The notes below the pieces were generated by a model. It was given only the letters and a program-made list of their open reading frames with translations, did no database searches and was not told where the DNA came from. DNA of 64,000 nt. Origin: Bacillota bacterium (lineage in GTDB: Bacteria; Bacillota; Sulfobacillia; JABLXB01). The stretch covers positions 310,001-374,000 of the forward strand of contig JABLXB010000003.1 of NCBI GenBank assembly GCA_013178305.1, read 5' to 3'. Positions 37,746 through 64,000 of the stretch are shown piece by piece. Within the stretch, counting starts at the first letter, position 1. Every line of letters begins with the position of its first letter. Position numbers and translations under genes: made by a program.

Positions 37746-37777
37746 CACCCTGGATCGGTAGAACACCGGCCGAAGGT

Positions 37778-37820
37778 AACAGGGGAGACGCGACATCGCG
37801 GCTTTCCTGTTTTCGCTTTT
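37778..37820 (+). terminator. Riboswitch expression platform, terminator-like hairpin
   Basis: aacaggggag (37778-37787) pairs with ctttcctgtt (37802-37811) with two G-U pairs, and an inner gcga/tcgc stem closes the loop; a T-rich stretch follows (tttcgctttt). The 5' arm lies in the possible ghost aptamer, so ligand binding could prevent the hairpin. Confidence 0.6.
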
Positions 37821-37929
37821 GTACGGGGGGACTGGGGACAGCGGAGGCCGGAAAGTTGGCGCGGTGACGCGGAGATCATTGCCTCAGACGGCCCACCGGT
37901 GGGGCCATCACTCCCAGGAGGTGAGGTGT

Positions 37930-42218: not shown

Positions 42219-43170
42219 CACCCGCGCCGGGCGCGCGGTGGGTGACCCATCAGGCAATGCTGGCCACGCCCCCGGCGCCGCCGGCGATGGCGGCGCCGGC
42301 GACGGGGCCGGGCGCAAGATCGAGTTCTACCACCCGGACCGTACGCTACCCGTCAGCGTTACCGGGCAGGCTTGCGGGCTGAACTGCGCTCACTGCGGCG
42401 GGCACTACCTCGAGGGGATGGTGCCCGCCTCCGAGGCGCTCGACCGCGTAGTGGACGGCGTGCCCGGGGGGGCCGGCGCCGGGCCGCGATACTCCAGTTG
42501 CCTGATAAGCGGTGGTTGCGACAGCGCAGGCAAGGTGCCGGTTCTTCGAGAGGTTGAACTGCTGAGGAGCCTCAAGCGATTGGGGCTGCGGCTCAACTTC
42601 CACACGGGTCTCGTCAGCCGGGACGAGGCGGCGGAGATCGGCCGGCTGGCCGACCACGTTTCGTTCGACCTCGTGGGCGACGATGAAACGGTCAGGGAGG
42701 TATTCGGTGTATCCGCGACCGCGGCCGACTATTTCGCGGCGTACGAGGCGCTTTCCGCTCACGCCCGGGTGACGCCGCACGTGTGTATAGGCTTGAGGGG
42801 CGGGAGGATTTCCGGGGAATTGCGCGTGCTTGACTACCTGGCCGGACGGTGGCGCGGGAGCGGCGGCAGCGAGCCCGGGCAGGTAGTGTTCATTGTATTC
42901 ACGCCTACGCGCGGGTCGCTGTACGAAAACAGGACGCCGCCTGCCCCGGAAGACGTGGCGTCGGTGGTCCGCAGGGCGAGGCGTGTCATGCCGGGGGTCA
43001 ACCTGAAACTGGGGTGTATGAGACCCGGGGGCAGGTACCGGCCAGTCGTCGACGTGCTGTGCATGGATGCGGGGGTTGACGGTGTCGTTAACCCGGCGCG
43101 AGAGGCTGAGGAGCACGCGCGTCGCCTGGGCCTCGACGTGGTCGCCAGGAGGGAGTGTTGCGTGCTTTGA
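42208..43170 (+). CDS. Radical SAM protein, probable subunit of a two-part (LipS1/LipS2-type) lipoyl synthase
   Basis: 320 residues. After a Gly/Ala-rich N-terminal stretch of about 35 residues, the radical-SAM cysteines appear in [18 protein letters not shown] (CxxxCxxC). [17 protein letters not shown] and [10 protein letters not shown] follow, plus further cysteines near the C-terminus (CMRPGG, RRECCVL) that could hold an auxiliary cluster. No lipA-type gene is present. The gene lies between gcvPB and another radical SAM gene, lipoate ligase and lpdA, the arrangement expected of the LipS1/LipS2 system first shown in Thermococcus. Which of the two names applies I cannot decide. Confidence 0.8.
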
Positions 43171-44177
43171 TACGGGTTTCATCGGGGACTGCGACCGTGC
43201 TGGGGCTTATCCAGACCAGGGTGGACGCGAGGCCGACCACCGCATACCTCATGGCGGGGGAGAGATGCGCGTTCACCTGCGGGTTCTGCCCGCAGGCCAG
43301 GGACGCCTCGTCGCCCGTCGAGCTCCTGTCAAGAGTCACGTGGCCAGAGTTCGAGGATTCACAGGTAGTCGAGACTATCGCCCGCGCCTACTACGGCGGA
43401 AGCCTCCAGCGCGTCTGCATACAGGTTGTACACAGCCCGGGCGCAGTCGAGCGCGCTGAACGCGTTGTCCGCGCCCTGGCGGAGGAGAGCCGCAGGTGTG
43501 GCGCCGCCGTACCCGTTCCAGTGTCGATTTCCGCCCACATCGCGCGTGCGCAGGAGGCCATCCGCCTCATGGACGCAGGGGCGGAGCGGGTCGGAATCCC
43601 ACTCGACGCAGCGACCCCGGAGGTGTACGAGAGGGTGAAGGGCGGTTCCTGGAACACGGCGTTCAGGGCGATCATTGAATCGGCCGCGGCGCGGCCGGGA
43701 CGTGTAAGTACCCACTTCATAGCCGGACTGGGCGAAACCGAAGAGGAACTCGTCAGGGCGATCCAGGTGATGCGCGACGCGCATGTCACGGTGGGGCTTT
43801 TCGCGTTCACGCCTGTCCGGGGAACCGCGCTGGCCGGGACGACGGCCCCCGACCTCCGCTCGTACAGGCGGGTGCAGGCGGCGCATTACCTGATAAGCAA
43901 CGGGTTCTCCCGTTCCGGCCTGATGAGGTTCGAATCCGGCAGGCTGGTGGACTACGGAGTCCGGCCGCAGAGGTTGCTTTACCTCCTCGAGCCGGGGGAG
44001 CCGTTCAGGACGTCAGGTTGCCCGTTCTGCAACAGGCCGTATTACAATGAGCGGCCCGGCGGCGTCATGTACAACTACCCGAGGAGGCTTTCGCCCGGGG
44101 AAGCGGCGGAGGCAGTCGCCCAGGCGACCGCGGATATCCTCGACCGGGATCCCGGGGTGGGGGCGGCTGCTGTTTGA
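43155..44177 (+). CDS. Radical SAM protein, probable second subunit of the LipS1/LipS2-type lipoyl synthase
   Basis: 340 residues; GTG at 43155 overlaps the previous gene by 16 bases, TTG at 43167 is an alternative. Radical-SAM motif ERCAFTCGFCPQARD, SAM-region VSISAHIARAQEAIRLMDAG, then ERVGIPLDAATPEVYERVKG and THFIAGLGETEEELVRAIQV. A C-terminal CPFCNRPYYNERPGG holds two more cysteines. It is similar in plan to BioB/LipA-like radical SAM enzymes. Paired with its neighbour it would insert two sulfurs into octanoyl-GcvH. Confidence 0.8.
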   Translation: MLRALIRVSSGTATVLGLIQTRVDARPTTAYLMAGERCAFTCGFCPQARDASSPVELLSRVTWPEFEDSQVVETIARAYYGGSLQRVCIQVVHSPGAVERAERVVRALAEESRRCGAAVPVPVSISAHIARAQEAIRLMDAGAERVGIPLDAATPEVYERVKGGSWNTAFRAIIESAAARPGRVSTHFIAGLGETEEELVRAIQVMRDAHVTVGLFAFTPVRGTALAGTTAPDLRSYRRVQAAHYLISNGFSRSGLMRFESGRLVDYGVRPQRLLYLLEPGEPFRTSGCPFCNRPYYNERPGGVMYNYPRRLSPGEAAEAVAQATADILDRDPGVGAAAV

Positions 44178-45004
44178 TCTGGAGACTCATGATCGATGGA
44201 GGAAACACAGGCGCGCGGAACATGGCCGTGGATGAGGCCATCGCCGTCGCGCATTCGAGAGGACACGTCCCGCCCACGTTGAGGCTTTACGAGTGGAACC
44301 CGCCCGCCGTCTCGATCGGGTACTTCCAGGACCTGAGCAAGGAGATCGATCTGGAGGCGTGCCGCGGGCTTGGCGTGGACTGGGTCAGAAGGCCCACCGG
44401 CGGGAGGGCCGTCTTACACGAAGACGAGGTCACGTACAGCGTGGTCATATCCGAAAGACTCCTGCCGGGTTCGGTGCTGGAGACGTACCTCGAGCTGAGC
44501 CGGGGGCTCGTCGCCGCGCTGAGGCTGCTCGGGGCGGACCCCCAGCTGGCTCAAGGCGCCCTGCCCGGGGGCGGGAGGGGGGCGTCGCCCGCGTGCTTCG
44601 ACTCACCCGCGTGGTACGAAATGACTTGCGGGGGGAAGAAGGTCGTGGGCAGCGCGCAGACCCGGCGTAACGGGGTGATCCTGCAACACGGTTCGATCCC
44701 GGTTTACATGGACGCCCGCAGGGTAGTGTCCGTCCTCAGGCTGGACTCGGACGATTTGAGGCGGAGGCTCGAGAAGAACCTCGCGCAGAAGGCGGTCGGC
44801 CTGCAGCAGGTGCTCGGGAGGGCGGTGGCACGTGACGAGGTAATGGACGCCGTTCAGAAGGGCTTTGCCGCGGGGCTCGGGCTGGAGTTTGAGCGCGGAG
44901 GTCTTACCGCGTTCGAGGTCGAACTTGCAGTAAATCTCGAGCGGGAGAAGTACTCGAGATCGGCCTGGAACGAGCAAAGGCAGGGGAGAGGACAGCATGT
45001 TTGA
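44174..45004 (+). CDS. lplA: Lipoate-protein ligase / octanoyltransferase family protein
   Basis: 276 residues, TTG start overlapping the previous stop. PTLRLYEWNPPAVSIGYFQD, VRRPTGGRAVLHEDEVTYSV and KKVVGSAQTRRNGVILQHGS match the BPL/LplA fold, including the catalytic lysine region. It would attach lipoate or octanoate to GcvH, giving the substrate for the radical SAM pair. Whether it is an ATP-dependent ligase or an LipM-type octanoyltransferase cannot be told by eye. It overlaps lpdA by 8 bases. Confidence 0.88.
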   Translation: MIWRLMIDGGNTGARNMAVDEAIAVAHSRGHVPPTLRLYEWNPPAVSIGYFQDLSKEIDLEACRGLGVDWVRRPTGGRAVLHEDEVTYSVVISERLLPGSVLETYLELSRGLVAALRLLGADPQLAQGALPGGGRGASPACFDSPAWYEMTCGGKKVVGSAQTRRNGVILQHGSIPVYMDARRVVSVLRLDSDDLRRRLEKNLAQKAVGLQQVLGRAVARDEVMDAVQKGFAAGLGLEFERGGLTAFEVELAVNLEREKYSRSAWNEQRQGRGQHV

Positions 45005-46397
45005 CGCAGTTGTCGTTGGAGGGGGGCCGGGCGGTTACGTCGCGGCCATCAAGGGCGCGCAGATGGGCGGCAGGATTGCCCTCGTGGAGAAGGACAGGGT
45101 CGGTGGGACGTGCCTGAACAGGGGCTGCATCCCCACGAAGGCGCTTGTCCGGACCGCGGAGGTGCTGGACCTTGCGCGCAGGGGCGCGGAGTTCGGCGTG
45201 CAGGTTCAGGGCACGTCGCTCGACATGATGAAGGTCACCGCCAGGAAGGACATGGTGGTGTCTCAACTCGTGGGGGGCGTGCAGCTCCTGCTGAAGTCGT
45301 GGGGCGTTGAGGTAATACAGGGGGCGGGGCGCGTTGCCGGACCCGGGCGAGTCGACGTGGTCAAGGCTGACGGCTCAACCATTTCGCTGGATACCAGGAC
45401 AGTGATCATCGCCACCGGTTCGAGGGCGGTGAACCTCCCGGTTCCGGGAGCCGACCTTCAGGGCGTGCTCGTGAGCGAGGCTGCTCTCGACCTGGACCAC
45501 GTTCCGCCACGGCTGGCCGTCATAGGCGCCGGCGTCATCGGGATCGAGATGGCTTGCATATTCCGCTCGTTCGGCTCGGAGGTAACCGTCCTGGAGAAGC
45601 TCCCCGGGATCCTCCCGCCGGTCGACGAGGAGATTTCGAGAAGGCTCACGGCGCTATTGAAGCGAAAGGGCATTGTGGTCCAGGCGGGGGTATCGGTAGA
45701 AGGCATAGGCGCCAACGCGGACGGCTCGAAGCGCGTGTATGGCAAGGACCAGGCCGGGAACCCGCTGCAAACCGATTGCGACGTCGCGATCGTCTCGGTG
45801 GGCCGCAGGCCCGATTTCGGTGGGATAGACCTCGACGCGCTGGGCGTGGCTTACGACCGGAAAGGGATAAAGGTAGACGAGCACCTGATGACGAACGTCC
45901 CGGGCATCTACGCGGTCGGCGACGTCCTCGGCAGGACGTGGCTCGCCCACGTCGCCTCACACGAGGGCATCACGGCCATGCGGAATATCATGGGGGAAAG
46001 CACGTCGATGGAATACGACGTCATCCCCGCTTGCGTGTTCTCATCCCCCGAGATCGGCTGGGTGGGGATCAACGAGCAAGAAGCCCGCGCCCGTGGGCTG
46101 CAGGTGAAGGCTTCGCGGTTCCCGTTCTCGGCCAACGGACGCGCGCTCATACTGGGCGAGGCCGACGGGATGGTCAAGGTACTGGCCGATCAGCAGGGCA
46201 GGCTTGTCGGGGTGCACATCCTGGGGCCGCATGCAGACGACCTGGTACACGAAGCCGCAGCGGCGCTCAAGATGGGTGCCACCGCCTGCGAGATGGCGGA
46301 GATGATCCACTCGCACCCGACGCTGGCCGAAGCCGTGGGTGAGGCGTTCCTGGGTGTGGACGGAAGCCCGATACACTTCGCGAAACAACGACGTTGA
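44997..46397 (+). CDS. lpdA: Dihydrolipoyl dehydrogenase (L protein)
   Basis: 466 residues. [20 protein letters not shown] binds FAD, the redox disulfide is [32 protein letters not shown] binds NAD, and the C-terminal active-site dyad lies in [16 protein letters not shown]. It reoxidises dihydrolipoyl-GcvH with NAD+. Its place in the gcv operon makes it the dedicated L protein. Confidence 0.95.
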
Positions 46398-46432
46398 GAC
46401 GGGCTCAAAACCGGAAAACGGAGGGAGACGCA

Positions 46433-47668
46433 ATGGAGCCGCTCAAGAGGGTAGATCCCGAGATATTCCGCTGTATTCAAGACGAAGAGCGGAGGCAGAT
46501 GGGCGTGATCGAGCTCATCGCTTCCGAGAACCTGGTGAGTCGCGCTGTGTTAGAGGCGGCGGGGAGTTGCCTTACCAACAAGTACGCGGAAGGGTATCCC
46601 GGGAAACGCTACTACGGCGGCTGCGAGGTCGTGGATGTCGCTGAGGATCTAGCCAGAGACAGGGCCAAGCAGCTGTTCGGCGCTGAGCACGTCAACGTCC
46701 AGCCGCATTCGGGGGCCCAGGCCAATACCGCGGTGTACTTCGCGATGCTGAAGCCGGGCGATACCGTACTCGGCATGAACCTGAGTCACGGCGGCCATCT
46801 CACGCACGGCAGTCCCGTGAACATCTCGGGGAAATACTTCAACTTCGTCGCGTACGGTGTTAACAAGGACACCGAGCGGATCGACTACGACGAGGTAAGA
46901 GACATCGCCCGCCAGGTGAAACCGAAGATGATCGTCTCGGGCGCGAGCGCGTACCCGAGGACGCTGGACTTCCCCGCGTTCCGGTCGATCGCGGACGAGG
47001 TCGGGGCGTACCTGATGGTTGACATGGCGCACATCGCAGGACTGGTGGCCACGGGGCACCACCCCTCGCCAGTACCGCACGCGCAATTCGTGACCACGAC
47101 CACTCACAAGACGCTGCGCGGCCCGAGGGGCGGCATGATCATGACGACTGCGCAGTATGCGAAAGACATCGACAAGGCGGTGTTCCCCGGGATTCAGGGC
47201 GGGCCGCTGATGCACATAATCGCGGCGAAGGCCGTGGCGTTCAAGGAAGCGCTCGACCCCGATTTCAAGGAGTACCAGGGCCGGATAGTGAAGAACGCGA
47301 AGGTGCTCGCCGAGTCTCTCGTGGCAAGGGGCTTCCGGCTGGTCTCCGGCGGCACCGACAACCACCTCATGCTGGTCGACCTCACGAACAAGGGGGTTAC
47401 CGGACTCGAGGCGGAGAAATTGCTGGACCGCGTCGGGATCACCGTGAACAAGAACACGATCCCGTTCGAGACGAGAAGCCCGCAAGTCACCAGCGGCATT
47501 CGCGTCGGCACGCCGACCATCACCACCAGGGGGATGAAGGAAGCCGAGATGAAAGAGGTCGCCCGGCTCATGCACGAGACCATTGCCGCAAAGGACGACG
47601 AGGCGGGACTGGGCGCGATCGCAAAGCAGGTGCAGGGGCTCTGCGCGAGGTTCCCGTTCTACAACTAG
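46433..47668 (+). CDS. glyA: Serine hydroxymethyltransferase
   Basis: 411 residues from ATG 46433 after ggagggagacgca; an upstream in-frame start at 46394 has no site. [39 protein letters not shown] and the PLP lysine in [16 protein letters not shown] are canonical. It joins glycine and methylene-THF to serine. Together with sdaAA/sdaAB it gives glycine to serine to pyruvate. Last gene of the operon, followed by a terminator. Confidence 0.97.
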
Positions 47669-51910: not shown

Positions 51911-52738
51911 CTAAAAAGTTGGGGGAGTATTAACCCAGATCGCGACAACCTCATCTGGACCGCAGTTGCGCCACCGGTGCTGCTGGGAACTCTTGAACTG
52001 GAGGCTATCGCCTGAGGCCACGACATACCTCTCGGTTTCGTCGAGCCAGACCTCCAACGTGCCACTCAGCACGTATATGAACTCTTCACCTTCGTGGGCG
52101 ATGTTCTCCGTGCGACCAGCCCCGGGCGCTATCCGATAGAGAAGTGACTCGATCATGAAACTAGAGATATTGGTCAACAACTGGACACTAATACCTTTCT
52201 CGTCGGTCTGTAGCTGTTTGCCTTGACCCGCAGGCACGAGTTTGCTTTCTGTCGACTCGCCACCTTGGTCGAAGAAATGTAAGAGGGTCTTATCATAAAA
52301 CGTCGCCAGTTTCTGCAGAGTGGTAATTGAGACATTAACCTGACCCGACTCAATTCTGCTCAGGTAAGAGGTGGAGATCCCAGTCGCCCGGCACACCTCT
52401 TCTAGAGTGAGCCCTTCCTTCGTCCGTAGCGCCCTTAGTTTCTGACCCAGGACTATACTGGGGTCCTGGCTATCGGGCTTGGAGGGCTTTGCTACGGGCT
52501 TTTCGCCCTGGGACGCAAGGTATTCTCGCAATCCGGCTATGTTGAAGCCTTTGACATTGATCAGGTAATGTATCTTCTTCAGATTTTCGATATCGCTCTG
52601 GGTATAGAGCCTGTACTGTCCGCTTCGGGGGCTCAACCGGATGAGCCCGGCCTTCTCCCAGTTTCGGAGTGTGGACGGGGTTACGCCTATCAGTATTGCT
52701 GCAGTGCCAATACGGAAAACGACTTGATCCCGTGACAT
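51911..52738 (-). CDS. Three-domain transcription regulator: MerR helix-turn-helix, XRE helix-turn-helix, cupin
   Basis: 275 residues. Residues about 5-75 form a MerR-type winged helix (TPSTLRNWEKAGLIRLSPRS, YRLYTQSDIENLKKI). Residues about 98-152 form an XRE/Cro-type helix-turn-helix (LRALRTKEGLTLEEVCRATG, ISTSYLSRIESGQVNVSITT). Residues about 190-272 form a cupin (HEGEEFIYVLSGTLEVWLDE, DSLQFKSSQQHRWRN). XRE-cupin regulators such as PuuR sense small metabolites; a MerR domain in front is unusual. It is transcribed away from the microcompartment operon across a 257-base gap, so it is the obvious candidate for its control and perhaps senses the substrate. Confidence 0.9.
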   Translation of the reverse strand: MSRDQVVFRIGTAAILIGVTPSTLRNWEKAGLIRLSPRSGQYRLYTQSDIENLKKIHYLINVKGFNIAGLREYLASQGEKPVAKPSKPDSQDPSIVLGQKLRALRTKEGLTLEEVCRATGISTSYLSRIESGQVNVSITTLQKLATFYDKTLLHFFDQGGESTESKLVPAGQGKQLQTDEKGISVQLLTNISSFMIESLLYRIAPGAGRTENIAHEGEEFIYVLSGTLEVWLDETERYVVASGDSLQFKSSQQHRWRNCGPDEVVAIWVNTPPTF

Positions 52739-52995: not shown

Positions 52996-53562
52996 ATGTC
53001 GATGGAACTGGTCGTAGGGATCAGCGGAGCAAGTGGGGCCATATACGGCTATGGGCTGGTCCGTGTTCTAGACCGCATGGGCGTCGGGGTCCACGTGGTC
53101 TGCACCCCAGTGGGCCAGAGAGTGTTGCAGCATGAGTGTGGCGTAGGCTTGGATACGATCCGTCGATATGCAACCGTCCATTCCAATGATGATCTGTTCA
53201 GTCCGCTGGCCAGCGGGTCCCATCACACAGACGGAATGGCGGTTGTACCGTGCTCAATGCATACTCTAGGCGTTATCGCTTCGGGGTTGGGCGAGGGCTT
53301 ACTGGCGAGAGCAGCGGACGTGACGCTCAAGGAAAGGCGCAGGCTTGTGGTGGTTCCTCGTGAGACGCCTGTAACCATTATCCACATGGAGAACATGCTT
53401 AAACTCGGACAGGCGGGCGCAGTGATCGTTCCAGCGTCTCCTGGGTTCTATAACCACCCGCAGACTATGAGCGACCTTGTTGGAGCCATGATCGGGCGGA
53501 TCCTGGACATCCTCGGCGTGGACAACCAGCTCTTTACACGGTGGGGACAACAGGGCTACTGA
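52996..53562 (+). CDS. ubiX: UbiX-family flavin prenyltransferase of the microcompartment operon
   Basis: 188 residues, the normal length. VVGISGASGAIYGYGLV binds FMN phosphate, AVVPCSMHTLGVIASG and VVPRETPVTIIHMENMLKL are the family active-site segments. It makes prenylated FMN from FMN and dimethylallyl phosphate for UbiD encoded 13 bases downstream. It is distinct from the UbiX fusion at 15307. ATG after aatggggagcct. First gene of the operon. Confidence 0.95.
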   Translation: MSMELVVGISGASGAIYGYGLVRVLDRMGVGVHVVCTPVGQRVLQHECGVGLDTIRRYATVHSNDDLFSPLASGSHHTDGMAVVPCSMHTLGVIASGLGEGLLARAADVTLKERRRLVVVPRETPVTIIHMENMLKLGQAGAVIVPASPGFYNHPQTMSDLVGAMIGRILDILGVDNQLFTRWGQQGY

Positions 53563-53575
53563 AGGAGGCCAAACG

Positions 53576-54928
53576 TTGGCCCTCTCATTGAGGTGTTTTC
53601 TGGATCAACTGAGGCAGCGCGGGAATCTTTGGAGTGTAGCAAAACCCGTTGACCCCAGGTTCGAACTCGGAGCAATAGTTAAGAAAACTAGGGGAGCTAC
53701 CCCCATCCTGTTCAAACAGGTTGTTGGGTATAACATGCCTGTGGCCGCCGGGGTGGTGGGTAGCCGGGAACTTCTGGCCTTATCGATGGGGGTACAGAAG
53801 GACCAGCTTATGACACGGATCGTTGAGGCCATCACAAATCCGGGAACCACTCGTTCGGTGGCTACCGCTCCCGCACAGGAAAATGTGCTAACAAAGGACA
53901 TCGATCTTATGAAACTACTTCCAGTGCCGACCTTTCACGAAAAGGACTCTGCGCCTTTCATCACAGCCGCGGTCCTCATGGTAAAGGACCCCATGGACGG
54001 ACGTAGGTTCACTTCGATCAGGAGGATGCAACTGAACGGGCCCAACTGCCTTAGTATTGTCATCGAGTCACCTGGCCTGCTCTCCCAGTATGAGCAGCTC
54101 GAACGCCAGGGGAAACCACTCGAAGTTGCTCTCATAATAGGGGTACACCCAGTCATCACACTGAGCTCGCAGCTCCCTACGCAGACGTTCGGTCTCGACA
54201 AGATGGCGGTCGCCAGCGCGCTGGCCGGTGAGCCTATCCGCATGGTCAATTGCATAGAGGTCGACCTTGAGGTGCCTGCGGATGCCGAGATAGTTCTGGA
54301 AGGGCGAATACTTCCGAAGGTGCGCAAATCGGAGGGGCCATTCGGCGAGTTATTTGACTATTACGGGCCTCAGACCATGCAGCCCGTCGTCGAGATAAGC
54401 ACCGTGACTTTTCGATACAACCCGATTTTTCAGGTGATTTTCCCCTCCAGTTACGAGCACAAGATGACCGGGGCGCTCATGCGAGAAACGATCCTTTTCA
54501 ATCACGTGCGGCATGTAGTCCCGACCGTGAAGAGCGTAAACGTTACGATGGCTGGTGGTGGTCGATGCCATGCCATAATCTCTATCAAGAAGACCGTCGA
54601 GGGGCAAGGGAAGCAAGCGATTTTTGCGGCCTTTGCCGCCAATAAAGACATCAAGCATGTCTTAGTCGTTGATGATGATGTTGATATCTTTGAGCCGGAA
54701 GATGTCGAGTGGGCGATAGCCAGCCGGGTTCAGGCAGATCAAGGCGTGATAATAGTCCCCGGCGGCCAGGGCACTCCGTTGGAACCATCCCACGTGATTA
54801 GAGGAGTCTCCGCCAAGATGGGTATAGACGCCACATGTCCGCTTTCCGAAAAGCAAAGGTTCGAGCGCGCCCGCATTCCGGGATACGACCACATCAACCT
54901 GGACGATTACCTCACCCTGGAGCGCTAG
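53576..54928 (+). CDS. UbiD-family prenyl-FMN-dependent decarboxylase of the microcompartment operon
   Basis: 450 residues, TTG start after gaaggaggccaaacg. FLDQLRQRGNLWSVAKPVDP, VLTKDIDLMKLLPVPTFHEK, FTSIRRMQLNGPNCLSIVIE for prenyl-FMN/metal, and ADAEIVLEGRILPK precede the catalytic loop EGPFGE (E253 to E258), which is intact. The C-terminus has GVSAKMGIDATCPLSEKQRF. UbiD enzymes decarboxylate aromatic and heteroaromatic acids, including the five-membered pyrrole-2-carboxylate. With purine-type enzymes downstream, 4-amino-5-imidazolecarboxylate is an attractive substrate, but this is inference. No obvious encapsulation peptide is seen at either end. Confidence 0.93.
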   Translation: MALSLRCFLDQLRQRGNLWSVAKPVDPRFELGAIVKKTRGATPILFKQVVGYNMPVAAGVVGSRELLALSMGVQKDQLMTRIVEAITNPGTTRSVATAPAQENVLTKDIDLMKLLPVPTFHEKDSAPFITAAVLMVKDPMDGRRFTSIRRMQLNGPNCLSIVIESPGLLSQYEQLERQGKPLEVALIIGVHPVITLSSQLPTQTFGLDKMAVASALAGEPIRMVNCIEVDLEVPADAEIVLEGRILPKVRKSEGPFGELFDYYGPQTMQPVVEISTVTFRYNPIFQVIFPSSYEHKMTGALMRETILFNHVRHVVPTVKSVNVTMAGGGRCHAIISIKKTVEGQGKQAIFAAFAANKDIKHVLVVDDDVDIFEPEDVEWAIASRVQADQGVIIVPGGQGTPLEPSHVIRGVSAKMGIDATCPLSEKQRFERARIPGYDHINLDDYLTLER

Positions 54929-54941
54929 GGGGTGACCACCG

Positions 54942-55229
54942 TTGAGCAACGCCATAGGCTTCGTGGAAACTCGTGGGCTGGTCGCGGCCATCGAAGCAGC
55001 GGATGTTATGGTCAAGTCTGCTGATGTAAAGATCATCGAATACCGGCTTGTCGGGTCAGGGCTCGTAAACATTACTGTCCAGGGAGAAGTGGCAGCGGTG
55101 AAAGTGGCCGTGGATACGGCGGTAGAGCGGGTGAGGAAACTCGGTGAGGCCATCTCGTTCCACGTGGTGCCGAGACCCCATGAGGACCTGCTCAAGGTCA
55201 TACCTCTGCGGGAGGCGATTGAGCCTTGA
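54942..55229 (+). CDS. Microcompartment hexamer shell protein (BMC-H), copy 1
   Basis: 95 residues, TTG start after ctagggggtgaccacc. AIGFVETRGLVAAIEAADVM, the pore-loop region RLVGSGLVNITVQGEVAAVK and HVVPRPHEDLLK are the canonical BMC-H (EutM/PduA/CcmK) pattern. Hexamers tile the shell facets; the VGSG loop lines the pore. It overlaps the next gene by 4 bases. Confidence 0.95.
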   Translation: MSNAIGFVETRGLVAAIEAADVMVKSADVKIIEYRLVGSGLVNITVQGEVAAVKVAVDTAVERVRKLGEAISFHVVPRPHEDLLKVIPLREAIEP

Positions 55230-56269
55230 CGGATAGCCTTACCGAAAAAATCATCAGGGACATCCTCGCGAGATGTGGGACCGCCGACACCGCTGCCGGA
55301 GCGCGTCTGCAGCGGCCCAACTACCAGCGCGAGAAATGGAAACCACGGGTCGGATCCCGCGAGAGCAAGGACCACAGCCCGGCCCCCAGTGTTAATGCGT
55401 GCGTGCTGCAACCGGCAGCCACGGCCCCTCTGGTTCAGTCCAACCTGCCTGCTGGTGCGCTGCTTGGTTTCGCCGTTAAGAGAGCCAGCCCCGGTCACAG
55501 ACCCGCTGAGGCAGGGCCCGAGGAACCTGTCGGGTGCCCGGCAGACCCAACGTCGCGAACCACAGCGCCTGAGGAACCGCGTGGGGAGGCTCCGGACCTA
55601 CCCGGTATTGAGTTCCAGGGAGTTGCTGGTGGTGATACGTTTGGCTACGTGATGGCCGACATGGATCTGCGCCTGATCGAGCATCTCAAAATCGTCACCC
55701 AGAACCAGGCCGTTGGTGTCTTGTGCTCGCGTCGAGGAGCTGCCCCGTTGATCGTGGCGGCGGATGAAGCATGCGGGAGTGCGGACGTAGGTATTGCAGA
55801 CATAGAACTGGTAGATGGCGATCGAGGCAAGCGTGGCGCGCTGGTGGTGTTTGAAGCGCAAAATGCCTTGGAAGCGACCAGGGTCGTGGAGACATGCCTT
55901 AACAACGTAAAAGAACGCCAACGGTACATCCTGGAAACCGGTGCCGGCGGGATAGAGACCCTCTACTGCTCGCGAGCGGCTCGGATCATTAACAGGCTGT
56001 TTAACGTACCGCTCGGCCGGGCATGTGGGGTAATCGCTGGCTATCCGGCCGCAGTAGGCTTGGCGGCTGCCAGTGTGGCGCTAAAGTCTGCTGATGTATT
56101 CCTGGAAAGCTTCTGCGGCCCCTCATCGTCCTGTCGCGTCGGGAACGAGTTCTGGACCGTCATTTCGGGCGACCCGAGCAGAGTCAAGACGGCTCTTGAC
56201 GCTGCACACAAAATGGGAGCCGCCATCCTGCAGAGGCTGGCTACCAACACCGGGGAGGTTTCAAGTTGA
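55226..56269 (+). CDS. EutL-like trimeric shell protein (BMC-T) with a long N-terminal extension
   Basis: 347 residues, about 130 more than usual. Residues 1-17 (TDSLTEKIIRDILARCG) form an amphipathic helix like encapsulation peptides; residues 20-130 are a Pro/Ala/Glu-rich linker. The rest is an EutL-type double BMC domain: SRRGAAPLIVAADEACGSAD, RGALVVFEAQNALEATRVVE, then GLAAASVALKSADVFLESF and SGDPSRVKTALDAAHKMGAA. Trimers of this type form large gated pores. The extension could anchor cargo or UbiD to the inner shell face. It overlaps the next gene by 4 bases. Confidence 0.87.
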   Translation: MTDSLTEKIIRDILARCGTADTAAGARLQRPNYQREKWKPRVGSRESKDHSPAPSVNACVLQPAATAPLVQSNLPAGALLGFAVKRASPGHRPAEAGPEEPVGCPADPTSRTTAPEEPRGEAPDLPGIEFQGVAGGDTFGYVMADMDLRLIEHLKIVTQNQAVGVLCSRRGAAPLIVAADEACGSADVGIADIELVDGDRGKRGALVVFEAQNALEATRVVETCLNNVKERQRYILETGAGGIETLYCSRAARIINRLFNVPLGRACGVIAGYPAAVGLAAASVALKSADVFLESFCGPSSSCRVGNEFWTVISGDPSRVKTALDAAHKMGAAILQRLATNTGEVSS

Positions 56270-56577
56270 GCGACGCACTGGGTCTCATCGAAGCAATCGG
56301 TTACGCCCCTTCCATGGCCGCCGTGGATGCAGCATGCAAGTGCGCGGAAGTAGAGTTCCTGGGGCTTGAGACGGTGATTGGAGCGGGGGGGAAAGCCTCA
56401 GTCGTGGTCAAGTTCAGAGGCGAGGTGGCAACGGTCACCACAGCGGTCGAAGCCGGCCTGGCAGCCGCTCGCTCGGTGGGTGAGGTACTTGCCTGGCGCG
56501 TCATGCCACGGCCACACGAGTCGCTTTCCAGGTTGATTTGGAGTGAAGAGACGCAAGCGTCAATCATTTGCAGGTAG
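56266..56577 (+). CDS. Microcompartment hexamer shell protein (BMC-H), copy 2, divergent
   Basis: 103 residues, TTG start overlapping the BMC-T stop. ALGLIEAIGYAPSMAAVDAA, then ETVIGAGGKASVVVKFRGEV and WRVMPRPHESLSRLIWSEE. It has the BMC fold pattern but the pore loop reads IGAGGKAS and the C-terminal tail is longer than in copies 1 and 3. It probably gives a mixed shell with different pore selectivity. Confidence 0.9.
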   Translation: MSDALGLIEAIGYAPSMAAVDAACKCAEVEFLGLETVIGAGGKASVVVKFRGEVATVTTAVEAGLAAARSVGEVLAWRVMPRPHESLSRLIWSEETQASIICR

Positions 56578-56660: not shown

Positions 56661-56954
56661 ATGGGTGAAGCTCTAGGTCTTGTCGAAACAAAGGGCCTTA
56701 CCGCTGCTATCGAGGCGGCGGACGCCATGGTTAAGGCGGCGACGGTCACAATCGTTGGGTATGAGAAAATCGGATTCGGCCTTGTAACCGTCATGGTACG
56801 GGGCGATGTCGGTGCAGTCAAGGCCGCGACGGACGCAGGGGCGGCAGCGGCCAAGCGTGTCGGTGAACTCGTATCGGTACACGTAATTCCCAGGCCTCAC
56901 GCGGAAGTTGAGAAGGAAATCCTGGCAAAGATCCAGGACGCACCACGTGGCTGA
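56661..56954 (+). CDS. Microcompartment hexamer shell protein (BMC-H), copy 3, pore loop GFG
   Basis: 97 residues, ATG after ggcgggtattgagtc. [40 protein letters not shown] and [15 protein letters not shown] are canonical. The pore motif is KIGFG; most BMC-H have S, G or A where the phenylalanine stands, so the central pore may be narrowed or made hydrophobic. An 83-base gap separates it from copy 2. Confidence 0.93.
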
Positions 56955-56964: not shown

Positions 56965-57738
56965 ATGAGAAGTCTGTACCTGACCTCGTTCAAGCATTGC
57001 ATGGATGACGGCCGACAGGCCTTCCGGGACTCCGCCAGGAAGGCACTGGTTCTTGTGCCGGGGTCCAGTGTGGGGGCTGCGTTGGGGTTCGGCACACTCG
57101 ACGTCTTGAGACGAGGTGGGTATGAGCTGTTGGTTGTACCTTCTCAGGATGCGATCGATGTCCTGGGCAAGGACAACATCGCATCACTTGCAGGCCTCAC
57201 GGGCACACAGCTCGATATGGGAAGATGCGGGCCAGACATCGTCAAGCATGTTGATCTGGTCTACCTTCCGGTGGTCTCTCCCAGCCTGGTGGCGAGGGTC
57301 GGTCACGGTATCTACGATGAACCGCTGGCATCTCTAGTGTTTCACGCATTGATGGCAGGTGTCCCCGTAATTGGTACTGAAGATGGGGCCCGGCCAACGT
57401 CGGACGGTTACAGGGCCAAGGGGTACTCGAACCCATCGCCCGGTCTCGTTGAGATGCTGGAGGCCAACCTTGGGGCGGTAGCGGCGCTCGGGATGCGTCT
57501 ATATCCATCGAGATCGGTGGCGAAAGAACTGGGGAGAGTGATCAACATCCCTTCGGCCGTGCCAGCCGGGAAACCATCGGTCCTCAACACTAAAGTGATC
57601 ACCCGGTCAGACCTGGTTGGGCTGGAGAACTGCACTGTGCTGGTCCCCACCGGAGCCAGGTTTACCGAACTTGCCAAAGAGTACGCGGCCGAAAAAGGTG
57701 TCAAGTTCTCCTGTAACCAGGAAGGGGAGGTGTGCTGA
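56965..57738 (+). CDS. Microcompartment-associated flavoprotein (HFCD/UbiX-like fold)
   Basis: 257 residues. The part HVDLVYLPVVSPSLVARVGH, GIYDEPLASLVFHALMAGVP, and VIGTEDG resembles the FMN-binding core of Dfp/UbiX-type flavoproteins (ADxxxIAPxTANTLAKxAxGIxDxLLT). The C-terminal NTKVITRSDLVGLENCTVLV, then FTELAKEYAAEKGVKF, resembles the element found in EutT/EutQ- and flavoprotein genes of other microcompartment loci. A flavoprotein of this kind accompanies many glycyl-radical BMC loci; its role is not known. Here it may handle prenyl-FMN or serve as a redox partner. It overlaps the pentamer gene by one base. Confidence 0.65.
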   Translation: MRSLYLTSFKHCMDDGRQAFRDSARKALVLVPGSSVGAALGFGTLDVLRRGGYELLVVPSQDAIDVLGKDNIASLAGLTGTQLDMGRCGPDIVKHVDLVYLPVVSPSLVARVGHGIYDEPLASLVFHALMAGVPVIGTEDGARPTSDGYRAKGYSNPSPGLVEMLEANLGAVAALGMRLYPSRSVAKELGRVINIPSAVPAGKPSVLNTKVITRSDLVGLENCTVLVPTGARFTELAKEYAAEKGVKFSCNQEGEVC

Positions 57739-58010
57739 TGTACCTCGGCAGGGTGATCGGGACCGTCGTGGCGACACGCAAAGACGAAGGCCTGGTTGGC
57801 ACCAAACTCCTCATCACTCAACCGGTGGATGCTGAGCGAGAACCCATCGGACAGCCGTTCGTTGCTGTAGATACAGTCGGTGCTGGAGCAGGAGAGATTG
57901 TGCTGTACGTTACCGGGAGCGTGGCTCCCTACGCCGTACGCAGGGGGGCCGTCCCGATAGACGCCGCTATAGTGGGTATTGTTGATCGGCTGGAATTGTC
58001 GAAGGACTAG
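57738..58010 (+). CDS. Microcompartment pentamer vertex protein (BMC-P, EutN/CcmL family)
   Basis: 90 residues. MYLGRVIGTVVATRKDEGLV, then GTKLLITQPVD, FVAVDTVGAGAGEIVLYVTG and AIVGIVDRLEL are the full EutN/CcmL signature. Pentamers cap the vertices of the polyhedral shell, so with the hexamers and trimer a closed shell can be formed. Confidence 0.96.
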   Translation: MYLGRVIGTVVATRKDEGLVGTKLLITQPVDAEREPIGQPFVAVDTVGAGAGEIVLYVTGSVAPYAVRRGAVPIDAAIVGIVDRLELSKD

Positions 58011-58018: not shown

Positions 58019-59848
58019 TTGGGGGGGGGAGTTACTCTGGACGCTCAAGTCTATAAGACCGGGCTCACGCGCAGGCAACTGGTGGATATACTTATGGGTC
58101 AGGGCCAAAAAGCAAGCCTGGTACTCAAAGATGGCCTTGTGGTGAACGTCATTACCCGCGAGGTTTACCAGGCTGATGTGGCCATTTATGACGACCTTAT
58201 CCTCAAGGTGGGTGACGCATCAGACCTGACCGGCCCTTGCACCGAAATGCTCGACCTTAAGGGCAAGTATTACGTGGCCCCAGGTTTTATAGATTCTCAT
58301 ATGCATTTTGAAAGTAGTATGCTTACCATTTCGGAGTTCTCCCGTCTGTCCATCCCTTCCGGCACTACAACGCTCGTCGCGGACCCACACGAGATCGCAA
58401 ACGCGCTCGGCCTTGTGGGCATCAGGGCAATGTGCGAAGAAGCGACGTTAGTGCCGAGCAGGGTTTACCTCGTCATACCCGCGCTTGTCCCGGACTGCCC
58501 GGGCCTCGAGACCGCGTGCTGTAACATCACTTCAAAGCACATGGCTGAGGCGCTGGGCTATCCCAACGTCCTCGGCATCGGGGAACTGCAGGGGTTTTCA
58601 AACGCCAGGGCGGTTCACCGGTACGCCCCACAGGTGGTCACCGACCTAGTGGCTTCGACTACCTATGCGCAGTCGATGGGGAAAACCGTTGACGGCAATG
58701 CCCCCGATCTTTTCGGGAGCGAACTGGCCGCCCACATCGTGGCCGGGGGCACCGAAGTCTCATGCCACGAGACAACGCGAAAGGACGAATGCCTCGAGAA
58801 GATCCGATACGGCGTTTATGTCTTCATGCGGGAGGGTTCCACCCAGAAAAACATGGCGGAGTGCATCAGGGTTGTGACCGAGGAAGGCGTGGACTCGCGC
58901 CGACTCATTGCGGCCACGGATGATATGGTCGCGGAGGACCTTGCAAGCACCGGCCATATGAACTGGGCGATCCGCAGGATCATCGAGCAAGGTATCGACC
59001 CGGTGGAAGCGATCCAGATGGCGACCATCAACCCCGCCACTTACTTCGGGCTAAAGCACATCGGGGTACTCTCTCCTGGGAAAATGGCCGATATCGCTGT
59101 GATCTCGGACCTGTCCGCGATGGAAATCGAGAAAGTTTTCATTGGCGGCAGGCTTGTCGCCGGGGCTGGTCAGACGCTTATCGATATCCCCGTTTACACC
59201 TACCCCGATAGCACAAAACGGTCGGTCAGGCGCGAACCTGTGGAGGCAGACATGCTTCAGGTAAGAGCGCATTCCGGCACTGCTCGCGTCAGGACGATCG
59301 GTCTAATTCCTGACCAGAACCTTACGGACCTACTCGAGTTTGATATACCTGTACAAGGTGAAATCGCGATGGCCGACCTTGGACAGGACGTTTTGCCGAT
59401 CGCTGTGGTCGAACGCTACGGGCGCACCGGCGGAATAGGAAAAGGATTCGTAAAGGGATTTGGGCTATCGAGTGGCGCCTTCGCGGAGAGCGTCAGCCAC
59501 GATGCCCACAACATCATTGTGGTCGGCACGGATCATCGGGACATGGCGGCCGCGGTCAACAGGGTTATCGAGATGAATGGGGGCGTCGCGGTCGTTAAGG
59601 GTGGCCGGGTGCTGGACGAGCTGCAGCTGCCCGTGGGTGGACTGATAACGGATGAGGTAGACGGCCTGAGGCTCAGCCAAAAGATAAGTGCTCTGCATGC
59701 TATTGCACGAGCGGAACTCGGCTGCCGGGTCCATGCTCCGTTCATGCACCTTTCGTTCTTATCGCTGACGACCAGCCCCAAGTTGAAAATCACGGACCGG
59801 GGTCTCATTGACGTGGAGCGATTCGCCATCGTGGACCCCGTCGTGTAG
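58019..59848 (+). CDS. ade: Adenine deaminase-family amidohydrolase
   Basis: 609 residues. Metal-binding amidohydrolase motifs: YVAPGFIDSHMHFESSML, TTTLVADPHEIANALGLVGI, SCHETTRKDECLEKIRYGVY and IAATDDMVAEDL; the C-terminal part has HDAHNIIVVGTDHRDMAAAV, typical of Ade. Ade converts adenine to hypoxanthine and ammonia. In a microcompartment operon with a decarboxylase and formiminotransferase it could instead deaminate aminoimidazole or open xanthine. The start is unclear: a TTG at 58019 precedes nine G, and a CTG at 58037 is better spaced from that G run; family alignment requires a start before about residue 15. Confidence 0.9.
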   Translation: MGGGVTLDAQVYKTGLTRRQLVDILMGQGQKASLVLKDGLVVNVITREVYQADVAIYDDLILKVGDASDLTGPCTEMLDLKGKYYVAPGFIDSHMHFESSMLTISEFSRLSIPSGTTTLVADPHEIANALGLVGIRAMCEEATLVPSRVYLVIPALVPDCPGLETACCNITSKHMAEALGYPNVLGIGELQGFSNARAVHRYAPQVVTDLVASTTYAQSMGKTVDGNAPDLFGSELAAHIVAGGTEVSCHETTRKDECLEKIRYGVYVFMREGSTQKNMAECIRVVTEEGVDSRRLIAATDDMVAEDLASTGHMNWAIRRIIEQGIDPVEAIQMATINPATYFGLKHIGVLSPGKMADIAVISDLSAMEIEKVFIGGRLVAGAGQTLIDIPVYTYPDSTKRSVRREPVEADMLQVRAHSGTARVRTIGLIPDQNLTDLLEFDIPVQGEIAMADLGQDVLPIAVVERYGRTGGIGKGFVKGFGLSSGAFAESVSHDAHNIIVVGTDHRDMAAAVNRVIEMNGGVAVVKGGRVLDELQLPVGGLITDEVDGLRLSQKISALHAIARAELGCRVHAPFMHLSFLSLTTSPKLKITDRGLIDVERFAIVDPVV

Positions 59849-59877: not shown

Positions 59878-61470
59878 ATGACCCAGTACATTCACGCGGT
59901 GCCGAACTTCTCAGAAGGCCGCCGGCAAGAGGTCATCGAGACTATTATAAGCCAGGTTAGGGGCGTGCCTGGGGTAAAACTAATCGGTTATTTCCCTGAC
60001 CCCGATTTCAACCGGACTGTGGTCGAACTGGTCGGAACGCCGCAGCCGATGGTTGAAGCCCTGTTGAACATGGCGGCCAGAGCAATAGAACTGATCGACA
60101 TGGAGCAGCAGACCGGGAGCCATCCGAGGATCGGTGCTCAGGACACCATTCCGCTCTTCCCCATGAGAAACATCTCCCTGGACGAGTGCACTCAGCTCGC
60201 GGAAGAAATCGGGAAGAAACTCAACGGGCAAACCCGCGTTCCAATATTCTTTGCGGGCGAGAACGCCCGTATCCCCGAAAGGAAAGCGCTGGACTTCATC
60301 CGCAAAGGCCAGTACGAGGGGCTTCGAGATTTGCTCCTGAGCGGGAACTGCGACCCCAGGCGCCTCCCAGACATCGGCGATGTCAAGGACTTCGTGCATA
60401 AGGGGGGTACCATTGTCAGCGCGGGCTCCAATCCTCTCGTAGCAGTCAACTACATATTGAACACGGATGATGTCCAGATCGCAAAACGGATCGCCCGCGC
60501 GGCCAGAGGCCCGTCCGGAGGGTTCTCCTCAGTGAGGGCGGTTGGGCTCAGGTTCACCGATCGAAACCAGGCTGTCGTGTCCATGAACATGTTCGACCAC
60601 AACGCGACCCCGCTATCCCGTACGTTTAACCTGGTGAAGTCCGAGGCGGAACGGTATGGCGCGGCCATAACCGCCACCCAGCTCATCGGAACCGTTCCAC
60701 AGGAAAGCCTGGTGCAGGTGGCCGAGTACTTTCTCAGGCTTGAAGGCTTTGACCGGACCCAGATAAGGGAAAACCACCTGATCGATCTACACGACGCAGG
60801 TGTAGTGGAGGCCTCGAAACCGGCGGCGCTTACAGATATGTCCGTAAAACGCTTTGTACAGGAGCTCGCGTCCAACTCACCCGCCCCCGGTGGTGGGAGC
60901 GTGGCGGCTCTCTCGGCCGCTATGAGCGCGGGCCTGCTTAGCATGGTCTTAGGCCTGACGCTAGGCAGGGAGAAGTTCGCGGATGTTGAGGGCGAGCTGT
61001 ACCCACTCAAGGAAAAAACGCGGGCGCTCCACACAAGGCTTCTCGAACTTGCCAACATCGACACGGACACCTTCAACGAGGTCATGGCCACACTCAAACT
61101 ACCCAGGGAAACGGAAGAGCAGAAGCAAGAACGCTCCGCCAGAATTCAGGCTGCCTACAAAAAAGCTGTCGGAGTTCCCCTCGAGGTTGCTGAGAAGTGT
61201 GTTGGATTACTCGAAATGTGTCCCGTCATAGCCGAAAAAGGGAACCCTAGCGCGCTGTCGGATGCCGGTGTGGCAGCGAACATGGCCTACGCCGGGCTTG
61301 AGGGAGCGGCAATGAATGTCAGGATTAACCTGGGATCTATCAAGGACGAGGAGTTCGTCAGGGAAACCCGGAGTAGGGTGAACGCCGCGCTCAAGGTCGG
61401 GCGCGATCTGAGAGACCGAGTTGCCGCTTACGTTAACCAGAAGATCCAGGTATTCTGTGCAGTACCTTAA
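59878..61470 (+). CDS. ftcD: Formiminotransferase-cyclodeaminase (bifunctional)
   Basis: 530 residues, ATG after gaagggaaggtagggct. Residues 1-320 form the formiminotransferase domain: IHAVPNFSEGRRQEVIETII, GSHPRIGAQDTIPLFPMRNI with the catalytic histidine, and GLRFTDRNQAVVSMNMFDH. Residues about 335-530 form the cyclodeaminase domain: VQELASNSPAPGGGSVAALS, ADVEGELYPLKEKTRALHTR. It moves a formimino group from formiminoglutamate or formiminoglycine to THF, then makes methenyl-THF and ammonia. No histidine-degradation genes are near, so formiminoglycine from purine breakdown is the likely donor, yielding glycine and a one-carbon unit. Confidence 0.95.
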   Translation: MTQYIHAVPNFSEGRRQEVIETIISQVRGVPGVKLIGYFPDPDFNRTVVELVGTPQPMVEALLNMAARAIELIDMEQQTGSHPRIGAQDTIPLFPMRNISLDECTQLAEEIGKKLNGQTRVPIFFAGENARIPERKALDFIRKGQYEGLRDLLLSGNCDPRRLPDIGDVKDFVHKGGTIVSAGSNPLVAVNYILNTDDVQIAKRIARAARGPSGGFSSVRAVGLRFTDRNQAVVSMNMFDHNATPLSRTFNLVKSEAERYGAAITATQLIGTVPQESLVQVAEYFLRLEGFDRTQIRENHLIDLHDAGVVEASKPAALTDMSVKRFVQELASNSPAPGGGSVAALSAAMSAGLLSMVLGLTLGREKFADVEGELYPLKEKTRALHTRLLELANIDTDTFNEVMATLKLPRETEEQKQERSARIQAAYKKAVGVPLEVAEKCVGLLEMCPVIAEKGNPSALSDAGVAANMAYAGLEGAAMNVRINLGSIKDEEFVRETRSRVNAALKVGRDLRDRVAAYVNQKIQVFCAVP

Positions 61471-61493: not shown

Positions 61494-62174
61494 GTGGCAA
61501 GGATCGTGGACTTGTCGCAAGAGATCTACCAGGGAATGCCCGTTTTCCCACTGCACCAGAAGACGTTCATTTTTCAGAATATAACTCACGAAGAGTGCGT
61601 TCGGCAGATCGGGTTTGGGTTTGCCACCAGAAACCTGCTCATCAACGAACATGGGCCGACGCATAGCGACGCTGTTTACGAGTATAACCCTGCGGGCCCG
61701 ACGATTGAACGGATGCCTCTCGAGTATTTCCTCGGCCCCGCCGTGTGCCTCGATGTGTCACACATATCTCATGAAAAGTACATTGAAGTCCAAGACCTGC
61801 GAGAAGCGCTTAAGAGGGCTGGCTTGGAAATTTCGAGAGGCGATATCGTCCTGCTCTACACGGGACACTACAACCGAAACTACGGCACCGCGAAATGGCT
61901 CACTCAATACTCGGGGCTGAGTTATGAGGCCACCGAATGGCTGGTGCAGAAAGGCGTAGTTAACATCGGCGTTGACGCGCCAGCCATCGACCACCCGGAT
62001 GACACGAAATACTCAGGCCACGCCGTGTGTGCTCGGTACGGCATGACCAACACTGAGAACCTCGCCAATCTGGATAAGGTAGCGGGCAAGCGTTTCCTGT
62101 ACATCGGGTTGCCGCTCAGAATCAGGGACGGCACCGGTTCACCGGTGAGGGCGGTAGCCTTGCTCGATGAGTAG
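61494..62174 (+). CDS. Cyclase-family metal hydrolase (kynurenine formamidase-like)
   Basis: 226 residues, GTG start after gggggggttggctg. RIVDLSQEIYQGMPVFPLHQ, LLINEHGPTHSDAVYEYNPA, ISRGDIVLLYTGHYNRNYG, and VNIGVDAPAIDHPDD show the cyclase/KynB fold. The metal motif in close relatives reads HGPTHxDAxxHFD; here the third histidine position appears to be glutamate (VYEYN). The family hydrolyses formamides, lactams and similar bonds. Opening of imidazolone to formiminoglycine would fit both the chemistry and the neighbour ftcD, but is inference. Confidence 0.85.
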   Translation: MARIVDLSQEIYQGMPVFPLHQKTFIFQNITHEECVRQIGFGFATRNLLINEHGPTHSDAVYEYNPAGPTIERMPLEYFLGPAVCLDVSHISHEKYIEVQDLREALKRAGLEISRGDIVLLYTGHYNRNYGTAKWLTQYSGLSYEATEWLVQKGVVNIGVDAPAIDHPDDTKYSGHAVCARYGMTNTENLANLDKVAGKRFLYIGLPLRIRDGTGSPVRAVALLDE

Positions 62175-62386: not shown

Positions 62387-63433
62387 ATGAACTTGAGCGA
62401 CTTGTTAGCAGCTATGGCGGTCGTTGTAAACGGCTTACCTCAAGGACTCCTGGCATTGACGTACGGGTTTGCGGCCTTTCCTACCGCTTTGGGCTTTGCG
62501 GTCGGCACGATCGGCGCAGTTGCCTTTTCTCAGGTGGCGCCAATATCGTTCCAGGCGGAGTCCATCGTATTGGCCGGCACCATGGGTCGCGATAGGGAAG
62601 AGCGCCTCAACATCGTAATCTTGACGGGTATCGTCATGACAATCGTAGGAGCCCTGGGCCTGCTCGAGCCCACCATTCGCTTCATAGGGCCCGCCATCTT
62701 AAACGGTATGATGGCCGGCGTGGGTGTGATACTCGCTACTGCGGCCATAAACATGATCAGGGCGAACTATGTTGTTGGCGGGCTTTCCGCCGCAGCCGCC
62801 ATCCTCACTTACGCCTGGTCAAAGAACCTCGTACATACCATAGTGATAAGCGTGCTCCTCAGCTCTGCTATATGGATCTTCGTGAAGAAGCAAGAGAGCG
62901 ATGCCTCTCCGGCCGGCGATCTCTCTATCGAGGTTCTGAAGAGAACTCCTTGGAAGATTAACCCCCACGTCATAAGGAGCACCCTGGCTATGATCACTCT
63001 CCAGATCGGGGGGAATATAGCGTATGGGAGTATTACCGGTGGCATCGCTAATACCCCGGTTAACGTCGACCACATAACGCTGTACTCCGGGATTGCCGAC
63101 GCCGTTAGCGCCTTGTTTGGAGGAGGCCCGGTGGAAGCCATTATTAGCGGTACGGCTGCTGCACCCCATCCCATGATCAGCGCCGTCTTGATGATGGGCA
63201 TAATGACGGTGATACTGGCGTTGAAACTTCTTCCCAGGATAGCCAGGCACGTTCCCAGTGAATCGATCGCGGGATTCCTATTTGTCCTGGGAGCCATCGT
63301 CGTATTCCCTGCCAACATCGGGCTCGGGCTCAAGGAATCTCCAGTTACAGCCGGCGTGACCGCCGTGGTCACTGCGGCTACTGATCCTTTTCTTGGGATG
63401 GTAGCGGGTGTGATTCTGAGGTTTCTAATGTAG
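62387..63433 (+). CDS. NCS2/AzgA-like nucleobase permease
   Basis: 348 residues and about 11 hydrophobic segments, shorter than the usual 430. ALTYGFAAFPTALGFAVGTI, then FIGPAILNGMMAGVGVILAT, ADAVSALFGGGPVEAIISGT and AGFLFVLGAIVVFPANIGLG resemble the adenine/guanine/hypoxanthine permeases of the NCS2 superfamily. ATG after atgggaggagatgaatag. Uptake of a purine such as xanthine, hypoxanthine or adenine for the microcompartment pathway is likely, though xanthine/uracil specificity cannot be read off. Confidence 0.7.
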   Translation: MNLSDLLAAMAVVVNGLPQGLLALTYGFAAFPTALGFAVGTIGAVAFSQVAPISFQAESIVLAGTMGRDREERLNIVILTGIVMTIVGALGLLEPTIRFIGPAILNGMMAGVGVILATAAINMIRANYVVGGLSAAAAILTYAWSKNLVHTIVISVLLSSAIWIFVKKQESDASPAGDLSIEVLKRTPWKINPHVIRSTLAMITLQIGGNIAYGSITGGIANTPVNVDHITLYSGIADAVSALFGGGPVEAIISGTAAAPHPMISAVLMMGIMTVILALKLLPRIARHVPSESIAGFLFVLGAIVVFPANIGLGLKESPVTAGVTAVVTAATDPFLGMVAGVILRFLM

Positions 63434-63488: not shown

Positions 63489-64000
63489 ATGGGCGTGAGC
63501 AACTTGTCTCGGGTAGAAAAGGGAGACTGCGCTTTGATCGTAATTGACATGCAGTCGGATTTCATCTGCGAAGGGGCGCCGATCGAGTGTCCGGGCGGTC
63601 GCGAAATCCTCCAGCGACTGAAGGAGTTACTCGCGTTTGCGCGTTCCCAGGGGATTCCGGTAATCTACACCCAAGAGATGCACCGACCGGAGAAGATTGA
63701 CTTTGGGAGGGAGTTGGAGCGCGAAGAGCCGGAACACTGCGTGGAAGGTACTCCCGGCGTGGAAATCATCGAAGAGATTAAGCCCCAGAAGGGTGACTTC
63801 GTCGTACCGAAACGCAGATATAGCGGTTTCTACTTGACAGATCTGGAGATCTTACTTAAGGGCCTCAAGAAGAAGACCCTGATCATTACAGGCGTTGCTA
63901 CCAACGTGTGTGTTTATGCCACCACTCTGGACGCTCAACAGAGAGACCACCACGTAATCGTTATCTCGGACTGCGTCGCTGGGACAAGCAGGGAACTGCA
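63489..64000 (+). CDS. Isochorismatase-family cysteine hydrolase (partial, runs off the window)
   Basis: 170 residues are visible from ATG 63489 (gggggaag upstream) before the window ends. The catalytic triad of cysteine hydrolases is complete: D20 in ALIVIDMQSDF, K108 in VVPKRRYSGF, and C141 in TGVATNVCVYATTLDA. Relatives include RutB ureidoacrylate amidohydrolase, N-carbamoylsarcosine amidase and biuret hydrolase, which cut ureido or carbamoyl groups. Hydrolysis of 4-ureido-5-imidazolecarboxylate to aminoimidazole carboxylate is the step such an enzyme would fill. Confidence 0.88.
   Translation, partial: MGVSNLSRVEKGDCALIVIDMQSDFICEGAPIECPGGREILQRLKELLAFARSQGIPVIYTQEMHRPEKIDFGRELEREEPEHCVEGTPGVEIIEEIKPQKGDFVVPKRRYSGFYLTDLEILLKGLKKKTLIITGVATNVCVYATTLDAQQRDHHVIVISDCVAGTSREL

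Follow-up and report, generated by a model that had tools for sequence, protein, structure and literature searches.

The UbiX/UbiD pair that heads a microcompartment (BMC) operon in the window (i.e., the whole stretch of 64,000 nucleotides analysed here) very probably encodes, as read from sequence, the prenyl-FMN (prFMN) decarboxylase for 4-amino-5-imidazolecarboxylate in anaerobic purine breakdown, and this is the best-supported reading. The assignment draws on the gene context in more than 80 loci, on kinship with the decarboxylase HmfF, on the UbiD being the sole decarboxylase in the loci examined and on a nearby glycine-using module. An earlier note on the same DNA had proposed this role and held that a prFMN enzyme for this step would, to its knowledge, be new. 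As the best-supported function, the role holds, given the context and the HmfF kinship, but it is not new, the step having already been assigned to XauD by Ravcheev et al. 2019 (PMC6620236). The decarboxylase idea was thus most likely right, and it is already in the literature.

The UbiX/UbiD pair and the microcompartment operon

As the earlier note had seen, the pair stands first in the operon and the EGPFGE loop is kept (residues 253–258 of the window UbiD); the shell genes that come next were not mentioned there. Both ORFs are above their family cut-offs, and a divergent regulator lies alongside (Table 1). The three UbiD Pfam domains (N-terminal PF20695, central PF01977 and C-terminal PF20696) are all above cut-off in the window UbiD, of which the start codon is a TTG just 3' of an AAGGAGG motif, while Arg150, Glu253 and Glu258 do not vary across 27 aligned orthologues; in an alignment with HmfF, these three residues correspond to the catalytic Arg/Glu/Glu network typical of UbiD enzymes. 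Downstream, and on the same strand, follow the shell genes, EutN/CcmL, the amidohydrolase, the FTCD–FchA fusion, the PF04199 cyclase, the permease and the isochorismatase. The deaminase/amidohydrolase, carboxy-lyase, isochorismatase and formiminotransferase genes of the Xau/BUF1 type are thus all present in the window locus, and a glycine-to-pyruvate module lies about 5 kb upstream of the operon.

Table 1. Genes of the microcompartment operon, its divergent regulator and the upstream glycine module (positions in the window).
Feature	Position	Strand	Evidence and remarks
Serine dehydratase alpha, GcvT, GcvH, GcvPA, GcvPB, LipS1, LipS2, lipoate ligase-like, Lpd, SHMT	36581..47668	+	NCBIfam
MerR + XRE + cupin regulator	51911..52738	-	Pfam MerR_1, HTH_3, Cupin_2; divergent from operon
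UbiX flavin prenyltransferase	52996..53562	+	188 aa; TIGR00421 213 bits vs cut-off 108.9
UbiD-family decarboxylase, XauD orthologue	53576..54928	+	450 aa; TIGR00148 346 bits vs cut-off 245
BMC-domain shell protein, hexamer type	54942..55229	+	PF00936
PduB-like BMC shell protein, long N-terminal extension	55226..56269	+	PF00936; PRK15415 PduB 177 bits
BMC-domain shell protein	56266..56577	+	PF00936
BMC-domain shell protein	56661..56954	+	PF00936; 76–85% identity to counterparts in other Xau loci
Uncharacterised conserved protein of the BMC locus; fold predicted to resemble UbiX/HFCD	56965..57738	+	Homologues in 65 related loci
EutN/CcmL pentamer vertex protein	57732..58010	+	PF03319
Adenine-deaminase-like (Ade) amidohydrolase, putative 4-aminoimidazole deaminase	58019..59848	+	PF13382/PF01979
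FTCD formimidoyltransferase fused to FchA-type cyclodeaminase/cyclohydrolase domain	59878..61470	+	TIGR02024 292 bits, NF045657 210 bits
PF04199 cyclase-family hydrolase, putative 4-imidazolonase	61494..62174	+	PF04199; 60–71% identity to those of other Xau loci
Membrane permease, family uncertain	62387..63433	+	ORF; MFS_MOT1 match sub-threshold only
Isochorismatase-family hydrolase type B, putative ureido hydrolase	63489..64000, on to 64082	+	L004:2489-3082; biuret amidohydrolase/RutB-like

What the sequences show directly is the gene content, the conserved synteny, the clade membership and the conserved catalytic residues. In the pathway, for which we infer every substrate assignment, the encapsulation and the chemical mechanism, UbiX would prenylate FMN and UbiD, with the matured prFMN, would convert 4-amino-5-imidazolecarboxylate to 4-aminoimidazole and CO2. 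Probably, the cofactor would attack the amino-activated C5 electrophilically, an attack that the amino group adjoining the carboxylate should help, and a proton would be returned via the Glu/Arg/Glu network. The adenine-deaminase-like enzyme would turn 4-aminoimidazole into 4-imidazolone, which the PF04199 hydrolase would open to formiminoglycine, a product supported by the FTCD–FchA fusion, the latter presumably transferring the formimino group to tetrahydrofolate and freeing glycine. This glycine could be consumed by the nearby Gcv/SHMT/serine dehydratase module; a glycine-serine-pyruvate route has been described for Clostridium acidurici growing on purines (PMC3519856). Judging by the shell genes, decarboxylation, deamination and ring opening would proceed inside a BUF1/Xau microcompartment; that the shell encloses these three steps is suggested by the conserved gene set, in which UbiD, Ade and the cyclase are constant, unlike the variable genes for xanthinase and isochorismatase.

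Several other observations concern the compartment and the genome. The PduB-like protein has a helix-like N-terminal stretch with a conserved RPNYQ motif before its BMC domains, also present in Bacilli and G602 (see below) loci, which is possibly a cargo-binding extension. The product of 56965-57738 has a predicted model (pLDDT 82.6) with top Foldseek matches among UbiX/HFCD flavoproteins (E 4.9e-7, TM 0.46 on the query) and a weak PduM profile match at its C-terminus; possibly, it is a flavoprotein of the compartment, either flavin-binding or degenerate. Two further UbiD genes occur in the same genome (window 20575-21954 and G000:C2:219716-221035), the one in the window belonging to a different UbiD clade and adjoining aldehyde ferredoxin oxidoreductase, DUF6282 and TRAP-transporter genes. 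The genome also has two more BMC loci, G000:C1:129977-145987 (L196) and G000:C6:12019-27144 (L197), which by ORF inspection are of the propanediol and ethanolamine type, respectively, each with a PF02441 flavoprotein match.

Gene context across genomes and earlier descriptions of the locus

When an alignment of four UbiD orthologues was used to scan one genome per species (84,980 species), 71 loci were obtained. BMC shell genes stand beside a UbiD of the same clade in all of them (71/71), while UbiX, EutN, Ade and cyclase genes are found in 70; the end of a contig cuts one locus. Xanthine dehydrogenase (XDH) subunits, Xan_ur_permease, an amidohydrolase of the hydantoinase type and a guanine-deaminase-like gene occur in many of the loci as well. 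The reverse search, for which the query was the cyclase and not UbiD, covered 391 Clostridia genomes and found the cyclase in 11 besides the query, with UbiX–UbiD in every one of these loci (11/11) and, next to the pair, an isochorismatase and an amidohydrolase of the xanthinase type; FTCD is present in 6 of the 11 fetched Clostridia stretches. No decarboxylase family besides UbiD was seen in the annotated Xau loci, and eight UbiD loci outside the clade contain none of these locus genes, weak matches aside.

The fullest gene set belongs to the genome G602, in the order regulator–xanthinase–isochorismatase–UbiX–UbiD–shell–Ade–XDH–FTCD–FchA–permease–GuaD–Ade2–serine dehydratase–cyclase. Its UbiD is 69% identical to that of the window, and the nearest relatives of the window UbiD, cyclase and regulator are all found in this genome, where the regulator homologue (392 bits) heads the xanthinase/UbiD operon. 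The amidohydrolase of the 58019-59848 type lies in the BMC operon of G602, in addition to a second, more typical adenine deaminase. When purine clusters devoid of UbiD were sought, G602 was a candidate on part of its locus, but the remainder includes UbiX–UbiD. Separately, on a 9 kb contig of the genome G601 that has no shell gene, FTCD, cyclase and Ade genes adjoin a UbiD (L169:2246-7417) that belongs to a different clade (32% identity, EGPFGD motif); here, a UbiD may have been recruited independently to this step.

Such loci have been described before. Axen et al. 2014 defined BUF as a microcompartment locus without metabolosome core enzymes, with amidohydrolases, a deaminase, a carboxy-lyase, an isochorismatase and a formiminotransferase (PMC4207490), whereas Ravcheev et al. 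2019 read the locus as one of anaerobic xanthine utilisation and gave the step to its sole decarboxylase (PMC6620236). Bacillus fordii DSM 16014, which is among their xau genomes (PMC6620236), corresponds to our locus L098 (Siminovitchia fordii DSM 16014), and UbiX/UbiD is the only carboxy-lyase among its annotated locus genes. The window operon resembles Xau/BUF in its shell genes, amidohydrolase, carboxy-lyase, isochorismatase and formiminotransferase, in having no operon aldehyde dehydrogenase and in the decarboxylase step proposed (PMC6620236), but it has neither a xanthinase gene of the hydantoinase type nor xanthine dehydrogenase genes, and it features a type-B isochorismatase and the FTCD–FchA fusion. 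According to PMC12507026, Tong et al. 2023 identified the gene cluster of the anaerobic xanthinase pathway in Clostridia and Bacilli.

Position of the window UbiD and its likely substrate

In our tree, all UbiDs of Xau loci, including that of the window, form one clade (support 100/99, 28 rows) with HmfF outside, so that the window UbiD is not within the HmfF clade. By sequence and fold, the nearest solved relative is HmfF (2,5-furandicarboxylate decarboxylase, PDB 6h6v and 6h6x; 438 bits; predicted fold Z 48.6, rmsd 1.6 over 396 residues), with which it shares about 47–49% full-length identity and a His and an Arg near the substrate site (His295 and Arg303 here), HmfF likewise handling a five-membered heteroaromatic acid. 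HmfF differs in its position outside the Xau clade, its furan dicarboxylate substrate and its gene context. Still, the identity of the window UbiD to HmfF (49%) is much the same as its identity to the XauDs of Bacilli (41–54%), which counts against our main reading. Together with the conserved HmfF-type His295 and Arg303, this identity is what would speak for a UbiD acting on a furan or another heteroaromatic acid, as HmfF does. We regard this as very improbable, since the tree groups the UbiD of the window with those of Xau loci and apart from HmfF, furan-pathway genes are absent from the operon, and the equivalent of His295 also occurs in the G602 enzyme and in all 11 Clostridia UbiDs beside xanthinase. 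At this recognition position, within an active site compared at the sequence level, His is shared by HmfF and the UbiDs of the window, G602 and Clostridia, and Glu is found in the aligned Bacilli-type UbiDs; a different substrate was considered on account of His295 and discarded, as the Clostridia UbiDs beside xanthinase and the UbiD of G602 also have His.

The pyrrole-2-carboxylate decarboxylase invoked in the earlier note is a prFMN enzyme for a five-membered N-heteroaromatic acid, but the parallel is a loose one, for HudA (PA0254) is more distant than HmfF: it shares cofactor and substrate class (PMC7976604) but sits on a distant branch (26–27% identity by structure alignment), with Asn318 at the recognition position. 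Because HudA weakly converts imidazole-4-carboxylate (1.3%) and does not convert imidazole-2-carboxylate (PMC7976604), imidazole C4/C5 carboxylates appear to be feasible substrates, even though the inactivity on the 2-carboxylate has to be counted against the main reading (PMC7976604).

It could also be that the aminoimidazole acid is decarboxylated spontaneously or by a cofactor-free enzyme and that UbiX/UbiD has another role in the compartment. CAIR, the ribosylated relative of this acid, readily loses CO2 and is decarboxylated without prFMN, PurE-type enzymes handling it without this cofactor, a point against the prFMN assignment. Yet UbiX/UbiD is retained in nearly every Xau locus, whether the search starts from UbiD or from the cyclase, and the annotated loci show no other decarboxylase family, which makes this alternative most improbable.

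The missing xanthinase and entry into the compartment

For the xanthinase pathway, the abstract of Tong et al. 2023 (Cell Chem Biol) reportedly names four hydrolases of different families and a prFMN-dependent decarboxylase. This set would match the genes of the relatives studied here, which would have the same pathway, whereas no xanthinase orthologue was found by sequence search in the window genome, where the best match reaches 34% identity, vs. 57–81% between true orthologues elsewhere. Considered as a distant xanthinase, this match was rejected as a non-orthologue with an unrelated neighbourhood. The six-ring hydrolase (xanthinase type, XauA) is absent from the window operon, as it is beside the shell in 23 of the 71 related loci. 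One XDH-family gene exists in the window genome, outside the locus (G000:C2:366475).

Type-A isochorismatase accompanies a xanthinase-type hydrolase in 48 of the 71 loci, while type B accompanies a creatininase-family hydrolase, with no local xanthinase, in seven (L057, L062, L067, L070, L081, L103 and L115), a pairing found in Paenibacillus and Cohnella relatives. Genes resembling nucleoside ABC and ECF transporters are present in several of the seven. The window isochorismatase is closer to type B (51–55% identity) than to type A (36–40%), and it has neither a xanthinase nor a creatininase-family partner. A creatininase-family substitute elsewhere in the window genome was dismissed, three of its four such genes having been compared and being 24–34% identical to those of the type-B loci. 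In G602, the regulator precedes the xanthinase, while in the window it is directly beside UbiX, which suggests that the xanthinase–isochorismatase pair was lost from the window locus.

The missing xanthinase orthologue and the differing isochorismatase type both count against the main reading, and they are the basis of an alternative in which the window compartment would start from a non-xanthine substrate, the xanthinase and the type-A isochorismatase having been lost. The type-B isochorismatase would then feed another ureido or amide imidazole into the UbiD–Ade–cyclase core. We consider this start unlikely, and no less doubtful the feeding role of the isochorismatase: if the fruitless xanthinase search in the genome and the seven loci pairing type B with a creatininase-family hydrolase favour them, such loci are only seven, and it is in G602, whose operon includes xanthinase, XDH and guanine deaminase, that the window UbiD, cyclase and regulator have their closest counterparts. 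Moreover, the assembly is a draft (97.7% complete), so that a xanthinase gene may be missing from it. Decarboxylation of 4-amino-5-imidazolecarboxylate in anaerobic purine breakdown hence stays our preferred reading for the pair. A variant purine-type compartment with a different entry reaction, in which one encapsulated aminoimidazole core would serve more than one N-heterocycle pathway, is put forward only tentatively.

For the biology of these bacteria, the assignment would mean that anaerobic purine breakdown, which is of interest for the removal of uric acid in the gut, makes use of a prFMN decarboxylase, and the genes around this enzyme would locate it within a protein organelle. The window contributes a member that branches deeply and a variant that lacks xanthinase, with which the entry chemistry of such compartments becomes a testable question, and this variant entry chemistry is the part worth following.
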